Shown here in pieces: positions 36,415-49,387 of a DNA stretch of 64,000 bases; positions within the stretch are counted from its first letter, which is position 1, and each line of letters begins with the position of its first letter. The notes beneath the pieces are model-generated. The model had not been told where the DNA came from, searched no databases, and worked only from the letters and a program-made list of their open reading frames with translations. The position numbers and the translations under genes were made by a program. The stretch covers positions 1-64,000 of the forward strand of contig JASKLO010000004.1 of the NCBI GenBank assembly GCA_030153605.1, in the 5' to 3' direction. The stretch is from Thermosipho sp. (in: thermotogales) (GTDB lineage Bacteria > Thermotogota > Thermotogae > Thermotogales > Fervidobacteriaceae).

Positions 36415-37020
36415 TTATTCTTCAAAATCCATTGATGCAAACAATTCTGATAAAACACTGTGAATTTCCGCATCATATTTCATTGTTCTATAAAAAGCTT
36501 TCAAGGCGAATATTCGCCTCATATGCAGTGTTACATCTCCACATTCATCCAAACTTTTAATTACCTTATCATAATCATCCGGATCAGTTAACACAATTAC
36601 GTCTCTATAATTCTTAGCTGCTGCTCTTAATAAAGCAACTCCACCAATATCTATGTAATCAATAAGTTTTTCTTCATTTCTAGATTTTTTTGCAATTTCT
36701 TCAAAAGGAGACAAATTTACAACAACCATATCTATAAATTTAATATCATTGTCTATTAAATCCTTCATGTGTTTTTGATTGCCAAATTTTGCAAGAATTG
36801 CTCCAAAAATTTTAGGATGCAAAGTTTTTACCCTACCATCTAAAATTTCTGGAAAACCTGTCAATTCAGAAACTTTAGTAACTTTTATTCCCTGTTTTTC
36901 AAGATAGTTAGCTGTTCCACCAGTACTAATTATTTCAACATTCCTTTGTTGAAGATTTTTTGCAAATTCCACTATTCCTCTTTTATCAGAAACACTTATC
37001 AATGCTCTTTTAACATTCAT
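36415..37020 (-). CDS. purH: stand-alone IMP cyclohydrolase domain (N-terminal half of PurH)
   Basis: RALISVSDKRGIVEFAKNL, ISTGGTANYLEKQG, LTGFPEILDGRVKTLHPKIFGAIL; ends at 201 aa, no AICAR transformylase domain. Confidence 0.9.
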   Translation of the reverse strand: MNVKRALISVSDKRGIVEFAKNLQQRNVEIISTGGTANYLEKQGIKVTKVSELTGFPEILDGRVKTLHPKIFGAILAKFGNQKHMKDLIDNDIKFIDMVVVNLSPFEEIAKKSRNEEKLIDYIDIGGVALLRAAAKNYRDVIVLTDPDDYDKVIKSLDECGDVTLHMRRIFALKAFYRTMKYDAEIHSVLSELFASMDFEE

Positions 37021-39239: not shown

Positions 39240-42200
39240 CTAAAATAGGCCTATGCTTGGTTCATTATTTTTGAAATCCCATCCAAAAAACTTCTCACTA
39301 AATTCCATAACATAAAAAAGTATTGATAATTTCTGGACATCATCAAAATTAAATACTCCATCATCATTAAAATCAAATTCACTTTTAAAATTAACTACCC
39401 AGTGATGCATTTTCTTAGAAATTGAAAATTGAAAATTAGTTATCTTTTCTAAATTAAAATTATATTTCGCTCCAACTACAAATGAAGGATCCAATGAGTT
39501 AACATTTAATAAAAGTTCTAAAATTTTATTGCTACTACCATATGAGAAAGATAACGAATCTTTATTAGTTTCTAATTTATAATTAAAACTAAATTTTGCA
39601 TCATCATACTTTGAAGATTTATAGAAAGAAAAAGAAAGAGAATTCTTAAAATTATTTAAAATAAAGCTACCTTTGAAATATGCATTTTTCACATAACCAT
39701 CTTCTAAAGATTGAGTTAAAGATCCTTTTAAGTTTTGATATTGCAAATTATGATTTATCTCCTTTATTGGAATCTCATCTCCATGATAAAATTTAAAACT
39801 TGATTTATAATTTAAACGAAGTTTAGAATTTTTGATATTAACACTAATATTCGATGGTAGTAAAAGCATTTTTTCATTATCGTATTCAGAAGAGCTAACA
39901 ATTAAAAAATTAAAATCATTCCTAGAAAATTTTAAATTATAATTTATTTTATCATTTAGATTTTTCCCCCTTAAGAAATCCCAACCTCTTGAAACGCTCA
40001 TGCTTGAAAAATTGTTAATATAAGTCATAACAAAGGAAAAATTGGATACATTAGTAGATGTTGATGCATCCTTAAAATTAGCTCTATAATTATAATTTGC
40101 TTCAAATTTTAGTGGAGAAATATTATAAATAACTGAAAAGTTATAATCATCAAACAAGGAAATTTTAGAATATGATGAATCTGTAAAAGCATTATAAACA
40201 TTCATCCCAAACTCATATTTTGCTTTAAATTGGAAGTTATTAAAATCAAATGTGTATGGAAAAACAAATTTATGATTTATTTTGCTAGAATATTGATTGT
40301 TTAAATAAATAACATCAAAGCTAGTATTAAAATATTTTTCATTATAAAAACTAAAATTGTATCTAATATTTTCATTCACATTCCAGGTTGAATCATCCAA
40401 AAAAAATCCATCTTTGAAAATACTTATATTAGATGTTAGATTTATAACTTTAAACTTCAAAAAATCATTCAACGGTACATTTAAGTTATTTAATAATAGA
40501 GAATTATTTATTAATGATCTTTGACCATTATAATCCAAATAAAAATTGAAAATACTTTTTGGTAATTTTGTACTAAAAGTACGTTTAAAACCAATCCTCT
40601 TATTCCAATTTAAACTTGTTACATAATTTTCCTCAAAATAAAAATCATTAAAAACTAATTTCATCGACGTATTTAATGTGTCCCAATTTGTTTTATAAAT
40701 AAAATTTTTAGTTTGTAAACTCAGTATACTTTTTCCAAAATCTATAGAAAACTTTTCATTTGTGTTTAATTTATTTACTAAAAAACTCAAATTAGAACCA
40801 TTTTTAAAAGTTTCAATATTTGTTTCAATAACTAAATCATTTATATGTGAAATATAACTTTGGTTAGTTATAAAGCCATTGTAAGGAGACCAAGAAAATG
40901 AAAAAGAAAAAGGTGACTTTTCTTTTTCAGAAATACTAGTAAAATAAATGGGATAAGGAAAAATTGGGATATCTAGAATAAACATTATGGAATTCTCAGC
41001 TACAATATATTTTCCTTCATAAACATAAACTTTTAATGATTCTATTTTATAATGAGGATGTTCTAATTCACAAGTAGTAATATATGCTTCATTTAATAAT
41101 GAACTTGAAGGAAAAGTTATAGCACTTGAAGCTCCAAAATATAAATTTACATTTTTATCTTTGTTTTTGTAATCAAAACTTCCTCTAACCTTTAAAACAT
41201 AAGCCTTATCTTCCTCAAAAGTGTATTTCAAATATTTTGCATGATAAATTCTATCTTTGTATTTATATTTTACATTTCCTTCTGCCTCTAAAAATTTCGC
41301 ATTTTTGTTTTCAAGAGTAACTGTAGCAAAATCAGACAAAACATCATTTTCATTCCATTGAATTTGTACATTTCCACTAGCAAATACTGTATCATTAAAA
41401 AATAATATTTCTGATGCATCTAACGTGATTTCATTAGTAAAAGCCTGAGAATTAAAAAAAATTACAACAAAAACAGTAATAATGAATATCTTTGACAAGA
41501 ATTCTCTCATTTTGTAGGCAAAAGGAGTATCTAAAATTGCAAATAAAAAAAGGCCTAAAAATCCAAAAGTAATGTTTGGAATCCAAGCAGATAAATAAGG
41601 TTCGATTAAATTTTCCTTTCCCATTGCCGCTAGCCAGGCTCCAGAACCTTGGTAAAGAACAACAATACCAAAGGTTAATATTACGCTCCAAGATTTACTT
41701 TTTAAACCGAATAAAAGAGACAATGGTACTCCTAACAATGCTATTATAAAAGGACCTACAGAATTAGCATATCTTGAATGAAGTTCAACTATCCATGGAG
41801 AAGGGTCTATACCCAATTTAGAAAAAGTTGCAATTTTACTTTTCAATTCCTTTCCAGTCATATCTCTAGGAGATTTACCAAACCTCATTAAATTTTCAAG
41901 ATCTTCTTTTAAATCTAATTTTATTTTTACATAATTCATGTCAAGCTTTAGAAAACCAGAATCATCAGTAACATACATTCTTCCATTTACCAAATACCAG
42001 GAATTATTTTCTTTAATAACTCTATCAGCTGTAACTATCCTTCTTTCATTTGGAAAATTTTGAAATAAAACTACATCATATAAAATTCCTTTTTCTTGAT
42101 CATATTTTTTGACAAAGAAATATTGTTCCTCATCAATTTTTGTTAAAACATTTTCACGAATAGTCATTTCTGGTTTTTTATAAACATATCTTGAAATAAC

Positions 42201-42593
42201 TTGAACTGCTTTTTGATTGAATTCAGGTACAATTTGATCATTTAAATAAAATGCGAAAGCTCCAAAGATAATTGCAAGAAAGAAAAAAGGATAAACCAAT
42301 TTTTTCGATGGTATACCATGTACTAACAAAGCTGTTATTTCTTTAGAATTATAAAGTTGTGAAAGTACCCAAAAAATTGAAAATAAAATTCCTACAGGAA
42401 TACCCATTGAAATAAAATATGGCAAATTATAATAAATTAATTCAAACAACTTCAAAATCCCGACACGATGTCTCACAATTAAGTCGGAAAGTTGATATAA
42501 TAGCTCAACACTTGCAAAAACAACAAAACCAAACAATCCCATTAAAAAAGGGCCAATTGAAAGTTTTAAAATATATTTTGTTAAAACTTTCAA
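39240..42593 (-). CDS. fused LptF/LptG-type permease and OstA/LptA-LptD-like envelope protein
   Basis: Single 1117 aa ORF; residues ~1-375 resemble YjgP/YjgQ; then LDASEILFFNDTVFASGNVQIQW OstA-like repeats; then Asn/Ser/aromatic-rich beta-strand-like region; DFNDDGVFNFDDV; C-terminal Phe. Confidence 0.85.
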   Translation of the reverse strand: MKVLTKYILKLSIGPFLMGLFGFVVFASVELLYQLSDLIVRHRVGILKLFELIYYNLPYFISMGIPVGILFSIFWVLSQLYNSKEITALLVHGIPSKKLVYPFFFLAIIFGAFAFYLNDQIVPEFNQKAVQVISRYVYKKPEMTIRENVLTKIDEEQYFFVKKYDQEKGILYDVVLFQNFPNERRIVTADRVIKENNSWYLVNGRMYVTDDSGFLKLDMNYVKIKLDLKEDLENLMRFGKSPRDMTGKELKSKIATFSKLGIDPSPWIVELHSRYANSVGPFIIALLGVPLSLLFGLKSKSWSVILTFGIVVLYQGSGAWLAAMGKENLIEPYLSAWIPNITFGFLGLFLFAILDTPFAYKMREFLSKIFIITVFVVIFFNSQAFTNEITLDASEILFFNDTVFASGNVQIQWNENDVLSDFATVTLENKNAKFLEAEGNVKYKYKDRIYHAKYLKYTFEEDKAYVLKVRGSFDYKNKDKNVNLYFGASSAITFPSSSLLNEAYITTCELEHPHYKIESLKVYVYEGKYIVAENSIMFILDIPIFPYPIYFTSISEKEKSPFSFSFSWSPYNGFITNQSYISHINDLVIETNIETFKNGSNLSFLVNKLNTNEKFSIDFGKSILSLQTKNFIYKTNWDTLNTSMKLVFNDFYFEENYVTSLNWNKRIGFKRTFSTKLPKSIFNFYLDYNGQRSLINNSLLLNNLNVPLNDFLKFKVINLTSNISIFKDGFFLDDSTWNVNENIRYNFSFYNEKYFNTSFDVIYLNNQYSSKINHKFVFPYTFDFNNFQFKAKYEFGMNVYNAFTDSSYSKISLFDDYNFSVIYNISPLKFEANYNYRANFKDASTSTNVSNFSFVMTYINNFSSMSVSRGWDFLRGKNLNDKINYNLKFSRNDFNFLIVSSSEYDNEKMLLLPSNISVNIKNSKLRLNYKSSFKFYHGDEIPIKEINHNLQYQNLKGSLTQSLEDGYVKNAYFKGSFILNNFKNSLSFSFYKSSKYDDAKFSFNYKLETNKDSLSFSYGSSNKILELLLNVNSLDPSFVVGAKYNFNLEKITNFQFSISKKMHHWVVNFKSEFDFNDDGVFNFDDVQKLSILFYVMEFSEKFFGWDFKNNEPSIGLF

Positions 42594-43294
42594 GAATTCT
42601 CCTCCTTGGAGTTTTCTAAAGAATCAATTGTATAAAGTTTGTCATTAAAACACCTATATTGTTTTCCAGTAATTATATAAGATGTAGTTTCAGCAATCTT
42701 AGTAGCTTGATCTGCAATTTCTTCTATATTTTGAGAAATCTCAAGTAAGATCAATGCTCTTTTAACATATTTAGAATTTTCCATCATATAGACCAACAAT
42801 TCATTTCTAATTTCTTCTAAAAAATCATCTATTTCTTGATCTCTCTCACAAATTTCTTCAGCACCATTCATGTTTTGATCCGCAAACATTCGCATACTTT
42901 CTCTTAGCATTTTTAAAACATGTTTAGCCATTTCAGGAATTGTAATCAAAGGTTTTAATTGAGGTTCTTTTATTAATTCTAAAGTTTTCTTTGCTATTTC
43001 CAATGACTTTTCAGATATCATTTGAAAATAACTTGATATAACAAAACTACCTGTTACTATCCTCAAGTCCATTGACATTGGCATCATGGTAGATAAAATA
43101 ACTAGTGCTTTTTCCCTGATTTTCATATCCATTATATTTATTTCATTTTTCCTTTCAAGAACATTTTTGGCTGAATTTTCATCTCTTTCTTTTAACGAAT
43201 TCAAAGCCTGATTAAATAATGTTTCAGCAAGCCAACCTTCTTTTAAAACCATTTTTTTTAATTCCTCAATACTTTCCTTCAAAATCCAATCCAT
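42590..43294 (-). CDS. phoU: PhoU-family phosphate regulator
   Basis: PhoU helical repeats, DLRIVTGSFVISSYFQMISEKSLEIAK. Confidence 0.85.
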   Translation of the reverse strand: MDWILKESIEELKKMVLKEGWLAETLFNQALNSLKERDENSAKNVLERKNEINIMDMKIREKALVILSTMMPMSMDLRIVTGSFVISSYFQMISEKSLEIAKKTLELIKEPQLKPLITIPEMAKHVLKMLRESMRMFADQNMNGAEEICERDQEIDDFLEEIRNELLVYMMENSKYVKRALILLEISQNIEEIADQATKIAETTSYIITGKQYRCFNDKLYTIDSLENSKEENS

Positions 43295-43303
43295 ATTATC
43301 ACC

Positions 43304-44074
43304 TTACTTAAAATAATTTTTTCCATAACCCATTTTCTCTTTTATAGACTTTGAAAAATCATAATCAAAAGGTCTTAAAATAACTATACTTTTTTCTGAT
43401 TTTTCAACTGAAAATCTTTCAATTTTCCCACAATCTATACCATCTACAATTAAATGCGTTTTAAAACTTGTTTTAACAACTATTTCTTCATATTCAGGTA
43501 AAATCACACTTCTAGAAGCTAGAAATTGTGGTGCAATAGGAGTAATAACAAATGCTCTAACATTAGGTAATAAAATCGGACCACCCAATGAAAGCGAATA
43601 TGCAGTTGATCCTGTGGGCGTACTAATAACTAAACCATCTGCATGGAAATAGAAATTACCATCATTAAATGAAACCTCAATATCGACCATTTTTTGGTGA
43701 GGCTCTTTAAGTGCAACAACATCATTTAAAAACAAAGCATTATTTTCTTTTACTTTAAAAAACTGTCTCTTGTCTTCTTTAAATTGTTTTTTTTCAAGAT
43801 CTTTCAAAAATTTATCAAATTCATCAATAGTGTAACTTGAAAGGAAACCCAGTCTTCCTCCTTTGAAACCTATTATAGGCGAGGAAACAAATTTTGCAGC
43901 TTTTAAAACTGTACCATCGCCACCAATTATTAAAGTAACGTCAGTATTATCTACAATATCTTTTACTTCTGATGAAAAAAAACTTATTTTTAAGTTTTTT
44001 TCTTTTAATTTTTCAGCAAATCTTAAAGCAATATTACGTAAATCAGGTTTGAAAAAAACTCCTATATTTTTCAT
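43304..44074 (-). CDS. nadK: NAD kinase
   Basis: LIIGGDGTVLKAAK, DGLVISTPTGSTAYSLSLGGPIL. Confidence 0.97.
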   Translation of the reverse strand: MKNIGVFFKPDLRNIALRFAEKLKEKNLKISFFSSEVKDIVDNTDVTLIIGGDGTVLKAAKFVSSPIIGFKGGRLGFLSSYTIDEFDKFLKDLEKKQFKEDKRQFFKVKENNALFLNDVVALKEPHQKMVDIEVSFNDGNFYFHADGLVISTPTGSTAYSLSLGGPILLPNVRAFVITPIAPQFLASRSVILPEYEEIVVKTSFKTHLIVDGIDCGKIERFSVEKSEKSIVILRPFDYDFSKSIKEKMGYGKNYFK

Positions 44075-48184: not shown

Positions 48185-49387
48185 TTAAAAAGCCAATGCA
48201 GTTAAAATAGAAATTATAGCTATTAAAATTGACCCGCCTGCTATAATAGTTAAATAATTAACTTTCGAATCTATAGTTTTTATTTTGGAATTTAATTCAT
48301 CAACACTTTTTGATGTTTCTTCAATGAAATTTGCAAAATTTTCAATATTTTTCGAAATTTCACTTAATTTAGAACCATCTAAATCCAACTTTTCAATTTT
48401 CTCTATCCTGTTTTCTAAATTCGAAATTTCGTCTGACAAAGATTCTAATTTCAAAATTTTATCATCAATATAATTCATTTTTGATTCAAATTCACTATAG
48501 CTTTTTTCCAAAGTTTCTAACTTTTGTTTCAACGAATCCAAGCTTAAATTAACTGAGTCAATTTTGTTATTCAATTCATCTAATTGATTAACTTTTTCAT
48601 TTACTGAAATAAAAGAATTTTCTAAGCTTTCAACCTTAGATTCCAAATTCTGAAATTTGTCCAAAGATTTAATTTTATTATTAATTTCTTCAAAATTCAC
48701 TGTAAGATTTTGTATTGAATTTTTAAAATTTTCAAACTGCGCATTTATTTCAGAATGTTGAGATAAAAATTCGTTTTTTAAATTTTCAATTTCAACATCA
48801 ATTATAGAAATTTTTTGGGAAAAATCTTTGTTTAAGTTTAAAAAAGAATTTTCCAGAGTTGAAACCTTGTTTTTAATAGAATCAAATTCTTCCTTAAGAA
48901 CCATGTTTTTTTCTAAATTAGAAACTTTTTCTGCAATATTTAATAAATTATTGTCTTCTATTTTCTTTTCTAAATTAGATAAATTAGCTATCATATTCTC
49001 AAAATCTATTGAAATTTTTGCAAATTTCTCATTAATATCTTTTTGTTTGTTTTCTACTATGGTAATTCTTTCGTCCATGCCAGAAATTAAACTTTTTGTT
49101 AATTTTGTATCATTATTAATCTGGTTTAATTGAGCTTCCAACTTGTTAATCAATTCAAGATTATATAGTTTGATAATTTTATATACAATTCTAGCAATAT
49201 CTATTTTGGTCATTAATAAATTAGGTTTGAAATTTCCATTTTCATCAAGTTCCATTATCCTATTTTCAACTAAATATTTTACAACACTATAATCAGTGGA
49301 AAAAGAGGAAACATCAGTTATTACAACTTCTATAGCAAAAAAAAGAACTGAAAAAATTAATAGAATAATTATTAGAATTTTTTTCAT
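48185..49387 (-). CDS. Omp-alpha-like rod protein (SLH-like N-terminus, long coiled coil, C-terminal TM)
   Basis: Signal peptide; SLH-like segment (DVSSFSTDYSVVKYLVENRIMELDENGNFKPN); ~270 aa coiled coil; hydrophobic C-terminus. Confidence 0.8.
   Translation of the reverse strand: MKKILIIILLIFSVLFFAIEVVITDVSSFSTDYSVVKYLVENRIMELDENGNFKPNLLMTKIDIARIVYKIIKLYNLELINKLEAQLNQINNDTKLTKSLISGMDERITIVENKQKDINEKFAKISIDFENMIANLSNLEKKIEDNNLLNIAEKVSNLEKNMVLKEEFDSIKNKVSTLENSFLNLNKDFSQKISIIDVEIENLKNEFLSQHSEINAQFENFKNSIQNLTVNFEEINNKIKSLDKFQNLESKVESLENSFISVNEKVNQLDELNNKIDSVNLSLDSLKQKLETLEKSYSEFESKMNYIDDKILKLESLSDEISNLENRIEKIEKLDLDGSKLSEISKNIENFANFIEETSKSVDELNSKIKTIDSKVNYLTIIAGGSILIAIISILTALAF

Follow-up and report, generated by a model that had tools for sequence, protein, structure and literature searches.

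The mostly heat-loving phylum Thermotogota has an outer membrane and no lipopolysaccharide (LPS). Among described lipid exporters, E. coli LptB2FGC-A-DE resembles the system reported here in its permease fold with a coupling-loop glutamate, its LptB-type ATPase, its OstA-type bridge protein and an LptD composed of a beta-taco domain, cysteines and a barrel; it differs in that here LptF and LptD share one open reading frame (ORF), one permease gene stands in place of LptF and LptG, no separate LptC was found, and LpxC and LPS are missing. Bacteria are known to fuse a membrane protein to an exported one and to cleave the product at an internal signal peptide, as in the cytochrome b/c1 precursor encoded by Bradyrhizobium fbcH, which belongs to a respiratory complex and not to an envelope lipid exporter. 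Borrelia burgdorferi, likewise a diderm that lacks LPS, has an Lpt system too, but its six Lpt proteins are all separate and include both LptF and LptG as well as LptC (PMC10353723). A statement in that paper, citing Putker 2015, places Lpt orthologues in Thermotoga maritima, and a glycolipid cargo has been proposed for the Lpt systems of LPS-less diderms, T. maritima included (PMC10353723). The Lpt cluster of Negativicutes and Halanaerobiales also encodes just one LptF/G homologue, alongside LptB and OstA proteins; however, those bacteria make LPS, no LptD is recognised there, and the permease is not reported as fused (PMC5007114). In a 2022 survey of 903 genomes, bamA was nearly the only outer-membrane gene found in Thermotogae, and lptD was confined to LPS diderms (PMC8871954). 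None of the titles and abstracts in the literature that we searched points to the fusion described below, which may already have been noted in Putker 2015.

We analysed a 64,000-nucleotide window (the whole stretch of DNA under study, from contig JASKLO010000004.1 of the Thermosipho sp. assembly GCA_030153605.1), in which a stop-free ORF of 1117 aa at 39240–42593 of the minus strand begins with TTG and overlaps by 4 nt the upstream gene for a PhoU-domain protein (42590–43294, minus strand; Pfam, relatives' loci). This overlap is kept in many relatives, and the NAD kinase gene lying further upstream (43304–44074, minus strand) is likewise a conserved neighbour, in the gene order YggS-YggT-NADK-PhoU-fusion. 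An AlphaFold2 model of the full protein (mean pLDDT 80.7, pTM 0.40) comprises six transmembrane helices with a periplasmic beta domain (149–226), a seventh helix (357–380), a beta-taco (389 to roughly 540) and, up to residue 1115, a strand-rich, barrel-like domain. When this model was compared with the PDB using Foldseek, LptD filled ranks 1–14 (best E = 1.8e-20), and LptG and LptF came next (4.3e-14). Sequence comparison and structure prediction thus confirmed that the ORF joins a predicted complete LptF/G-type permease (6–351) to a predicted complete LptD (about 389–1117), a union of permease and OstA/LptD-like part that a preliminary description had proposed and on which Pfam, motif, profile and Foldseek evidence agreed. 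The supposed Thermotogota origin was also borne out, with homologues of the fusion found in that phylum and Thermosipho MAGs as the nearest named relatives (76% and 62% identity). Elsewhere in the window, a short PurH-like ORF of 201 aa (36415–37020, minus strand) carries an MGS domain and the first 59 positions of AICARFT_IMPCHas, and is perhaps no simple truncation, since ORFs of similar length occur in several relatives. A further ORF (48185–49387, minus strand), with an SLH domain, a long coiled coil and a C-terminal hydrophobic segment, resembles a homologue of the toga spacer Omp-alpha.

The permease half (residues 1–356, 41526–42593, minus strand; Pfam, AlphaFold2, hydropathy) matched the Pfam LptF_LptG model (PF03739) over residues 6–351 with E = 1.7e-73 and 248 bits against a cut-off of 27.9. 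Hydropathy, AlphaFold2 and alignment placed all six transmembrane helices, the periplasmic beta domain and the coupling-loop glutamate in this half. The glutamate, E85 (42339–42341, minus strand), is invariant in the family and aligns with E84 of E. coli LptF and E88 of LptG, whose loop we take to couple to LptB. Scores from NCBIfam fell below the equivalog cut-offs for both LptF and LptG (TIGR04407, 133.7 against 230 bits; TIGR04408, 125.2 against 240 bits), and the permease is therefore a member of the family assignable to neither F nor G; a sequence search of the PDB with the single full protein returned LptF matches only. As the fusion is the sole PF03739 gene of its own genome, a homodimer is implied. 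Separately, the column of E. coli LptF R212, residue 214 in the window protein, is mostly Phe, Leu or Met here, in an unsure alignment. The substitution R212G in E. coli LptF bypasses LptC (PMC9972910), and a hydrophobic residue at this column would fit an LptC-free machine, which given the alignment is a lead only.

The C-terminal part consists of a beta-taco/OstA domain (residues 389–540, 40974–41429, minus strand; Pfam, profile comparison, AlphaFold2) and a barrel (residues 541–1117, 39243–40973, minus strand; AlphaFold2, Foldseek, motifs), whose last residue is indeed the Phe pointed out earlier. The Pfam LptD_N model scored 15.2 bits on residues 392–474 of the window protein, under its 20.4-bit cut-off, and was matched by 14 of 25 relatives (best 1.9e-8). 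Hallmark LptD motifs appeared in the alignment of homologues, namely TTCxxxxPHY with an invariant cysteine, PxxYxPxYF and a near-C-terminal LHCW. The invariant cysteine, C508 (41070–41072, minus strand), is equivalent to C173 of E. coli LptD by alignment and by hhalign, which matched the homologue profile to the E. coli protein with E = 4.7e-6 and placed TTC on TSC173. A second cysteine, that of LHCW, is present in most members, and the two positions are those of the LptD disulfide partners (C173–C725 in E. coli); both cysteines occur in 25 of 33 comparable relatives, whereas in the window species C508 is kept and residue 1064 is His, giving HHW at 1063–1065 against HCW in most relatives. The C-terminal cysteine is replaced by His or Lys in several genera, with C508 invariant throughout.

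Profile and fold comparisons pointed the same way. NCBIfam LptD models were matched directly by some members (best 6.8e-11), and a profile search reached LptA and LptD, weakly. Modelled alone, as the preliminary description had advised, the C-terminal part gave a mean pLDDT of 83.4 and a pTM of 0.45, and in its Foldseek comparison with the PDB LptD took ranks 1–15 (best E = 1.9e-18) with other barrels far lower. About 39 strand segments follow the taco domain in the model, compared with 26 strands in E. coli LptD, a count that, like barrel closure, is provisional because TM-scores to LptD structures are low (0.3–0.44) and pTM is 0.40–0.45. The low TM-scores would also suit an unrelated porin-like barrel that had acquired an OstA domain, as would the null result for PF04453, the proteobacterial LptD core model, which matched in 0 of 61 genomes; this model is narrow, its control search being positive in just 2 of 14 genomes, and LptD identity accordingly rests on motifs, profile comparison and fold. 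With the TTC/PHY, P-Y-P and HCW motifs occurring together with the disulfide-pair positions, with direct NCBIfam LptD matches and with LptD so far ahead in Foldseek, we regard a porin-like origin as hardly credible. A viral library gave only noise, and matches to glycerol kinase and FAD synthetase inside the barrel were rejected as chance.

Hydropathy resolved seven hydrophobic segments in the protein, one more than the permease has helices. The permease extent of about 1–375 suggested earlier was correct as to the permease itself and too long at its end, which lies near residue 356; residues 361–384 (KMREFLSKIFIITVFVVIFFNSQA; 41442–41513, minus strand) form a predicted internal signal peptide outside both domains, as indicated by hydropathy, homologue junctions and split homologues, with a predicted signal peptidase I cut after residue 384 (SQA↓FTNE). 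In nearly all members, the stretch from the sixth helix to the taco shows a basic n-region, a short hydrophobic core, small residues at about -3/-1 and then polar residues, and AlphaFold2 pLDDT falls below 50 at residues 377–386. Junctions across homologues end in SQA↓FT, VYA↓NE, GFA↓GD, LFS↓SQ, TFG↓AQ and VWA↓AE, and the N-terminal signal peptides of the clade end alike, both in LptA (SYA↓KT, AFS↓KT, YFA↓KT, LYA↓GV) and in other secreted proteins (IFA↓KI, GFA↓QL). Of 47 distinct junctions, 36 carry the clade motif [FYHW][ASG], where shuffling gives 19.2 on average and 0 of 10,000 shuffles reached that number, in a crude test whose rows are related to one another and whose shuffling disrupts the order of core and tail; the strict aromatic-small motif is missing from the window's own junction (best cut SQA↓FT) and from 10 other distinct junctions. 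Core length proved no guide to whether the segment is cleaved or stays as an anchor: its median is 13 at the junctions, compared with 10–21 in real transmembrane helices and 14.5 in N-terminal signal peptides. Judged by its sequence, the junction is a signal peptide, and its preservation there points to cleavage of the protein into two pieces once it has been made.

Two proteins could also arise if translation started internally, close to the junction, with no cut of a precursor. M362 of the window protein lies immediately ahead of the hydrophobic segment and would begin a good signal peptide; however, this Met is not conserved, being absent there in most relatives, yet the frame is kept fused in the great majority of genomes, making an internal start very unlikely. 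PF03739 was found in 100 of 103 Thermotogota genomes (38 genera), and in 89 of these 100 the permease lies within one stop-free frame of at least 900 aa, ruling out an assembly or frameshift artefact. Genomes with apparent frameshifts (G050, G027, G089) or with frames running off contig ends (G038, G044, G053) were left out of the split count, and G071, G080 and G083, also below 900 aa, were left out of the sorting. One genome scan for the fusion returned Thermotogota only, using patterns that reach close relatives alone.

True splits were found in two lineages, G051 and G101 (locus L089), and both fall exactly at the signal peptide. G051 has separate lptF and lptG genes and a free LptD whose N-terminal signal peptide begins MVIKKFKKNQIFHILILIILLIPLMAFTQDEN / MVIKKFKKNQIFHILILIILLIPLMAFT↓QDEN, and the split is unambiguous since this LptD is on another contig. 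The loci of this genome (L047, L131, L156) hold tandem lptF and lptG, a 603-aa repeat-bearing LptA-like protein and the free LptD, resembling a re-expanded Lpt set. In L089, the LptF stop is followed after 4 nt by an LptD with its own signal peptide, beginning MHLRYKSFSPVLFIISLFFIILSGTKVFSA↓TA, which has gained a Met and a basic n-region that are both missing from fused relatives; a shift of one base in reading frame at this split may point to an assembly error. These splits weigh most in reading the junction: both free LptDs start at this point, and in a broken gene the segment looks like any normal signal peptide. Trees of both halves nest the split forms in fused groups (G051 LptD with G045/G057; L089 with G060/G050), and the deepest branches of the permease tree, with E. 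coli LptF/G as outgroup, are fused, in a rooting that is soft at depth because of the long branches leading to the outgroup and to the G051 permease. The simplest account, given these sequence trees and their soft deep rooting, is that the fused state is ancestral and the splits arose by fission.

The preliminary description had further imagined a single polypeptide bridging the envelope for another lipid or glycan. In such a bridge an uncut seventh helix would anchor the chain, and pump and barrel, in the inner and outer membrane respectively, would make up one covalent path for lipid across the envelope where the membranes are in contact. A single open frame preserved phylum-wide, the hydrophobic segment modelled as a helix by AlphaFold2 and a core length compatible with an anchor all accord with such a bridge. 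We nevertheless consider it unlikely, given the signal-peptide features and clade cleavage motif at the junction in almost every family, the gene splits at precisely this point and the retention of separate LptA genes. Moreover, helix and barrel are separated by a single taco domain (about 150 aa), too short for the Thermotogales periplasm, which is large at the poles; in the spheroids of Thermosipho globiformans the outer membrane is inflated and stands far off from the cells it encloses (PMC5487896).

The partner genes that a cleaved LptF and LptD would use were largely present. Exactly one LptB scored over the equivalog cut-off in 11 of 11 genomes tested, including the window's own (299 against 240 bits), where lptB adjoins an OmpH/Skp gene. 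A separate LptA gene was found in every genome whose LptA locus was read; that of the window's genome encodes 208 aa with a signal peptide beside patatin-family genes. The search for LptB and LptC partners advised earlier thus succeeded for LptB, whereas LptC matches, in the genomes that gave any, fell on the LptA gene, and we claim no separate LptC. Signal peptidase I and Omp85 were each found in 10 of 11 genomes tested. LpxC was missing in 61 of 61 genomes, with control genomes positive, in keeping with the expectation that classical LPS is not made; by gene content, Thermotogota have an Lpt pathway without LPS. On contig C29 of the window's genome (L130:9514–11649), lptA shares 4 nt with the second gene of a patatin-family pair, a gene that scores weakly, and the neighbours of lptA are similar in L132, L135, L139 and L140; this link between a lipase and lptA may bear on the cargo.

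We therefore favour, as a likely reading, a gene that encodes a two-protein Lpt precursor, or polyprotein, cut by signal peptidase I to yield LptF, a homodimer in the inner membrane, and LptD in the outer membrane, with cleavage, dimerisation, transport and cargo all inferred. The first six helices would insert as an LptF/G-type ABC permease, most likely a homodimer powered by LptB2, and the seventh hydrophobic segment would enter the translocon as a signal peptide, taking the LptD part to the periplasm, where signal peptidase I would cut after about residue 384. The Omp85/BAM machinery would then fold the freed LptD (about 733 aa) into the outer membrane. From the inner membrane LptF would extract a non-LPS lipid, probably a glycolipid; the separately encoded LptA would ferry it across, and LptD would insert it into the outer membrane, or toga. 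Counting against the precursor is its stoichiometry, as a 1:1 precursor with a homodimeric permease would yield two LptD per pump.

These observations bear on the view of Thermotogota as a test case for the diderm-first origin of bacteria. Standard LptD models miss the Thermotogota LptD, so that the 2022 survey scored lptD as absent from the phylum, which divergence would explain; the predicted exit gate would be present after all, hidden inside the permease gene and accompanied by LptB, LptA and Omp85. This raises the testable question of which lipid leaves through an Lpt machine without LPS. The gene is also a rare candidate for a bacterial polyprotein whose halves would be bound for different membranes, with the natural split versions as internal controls.
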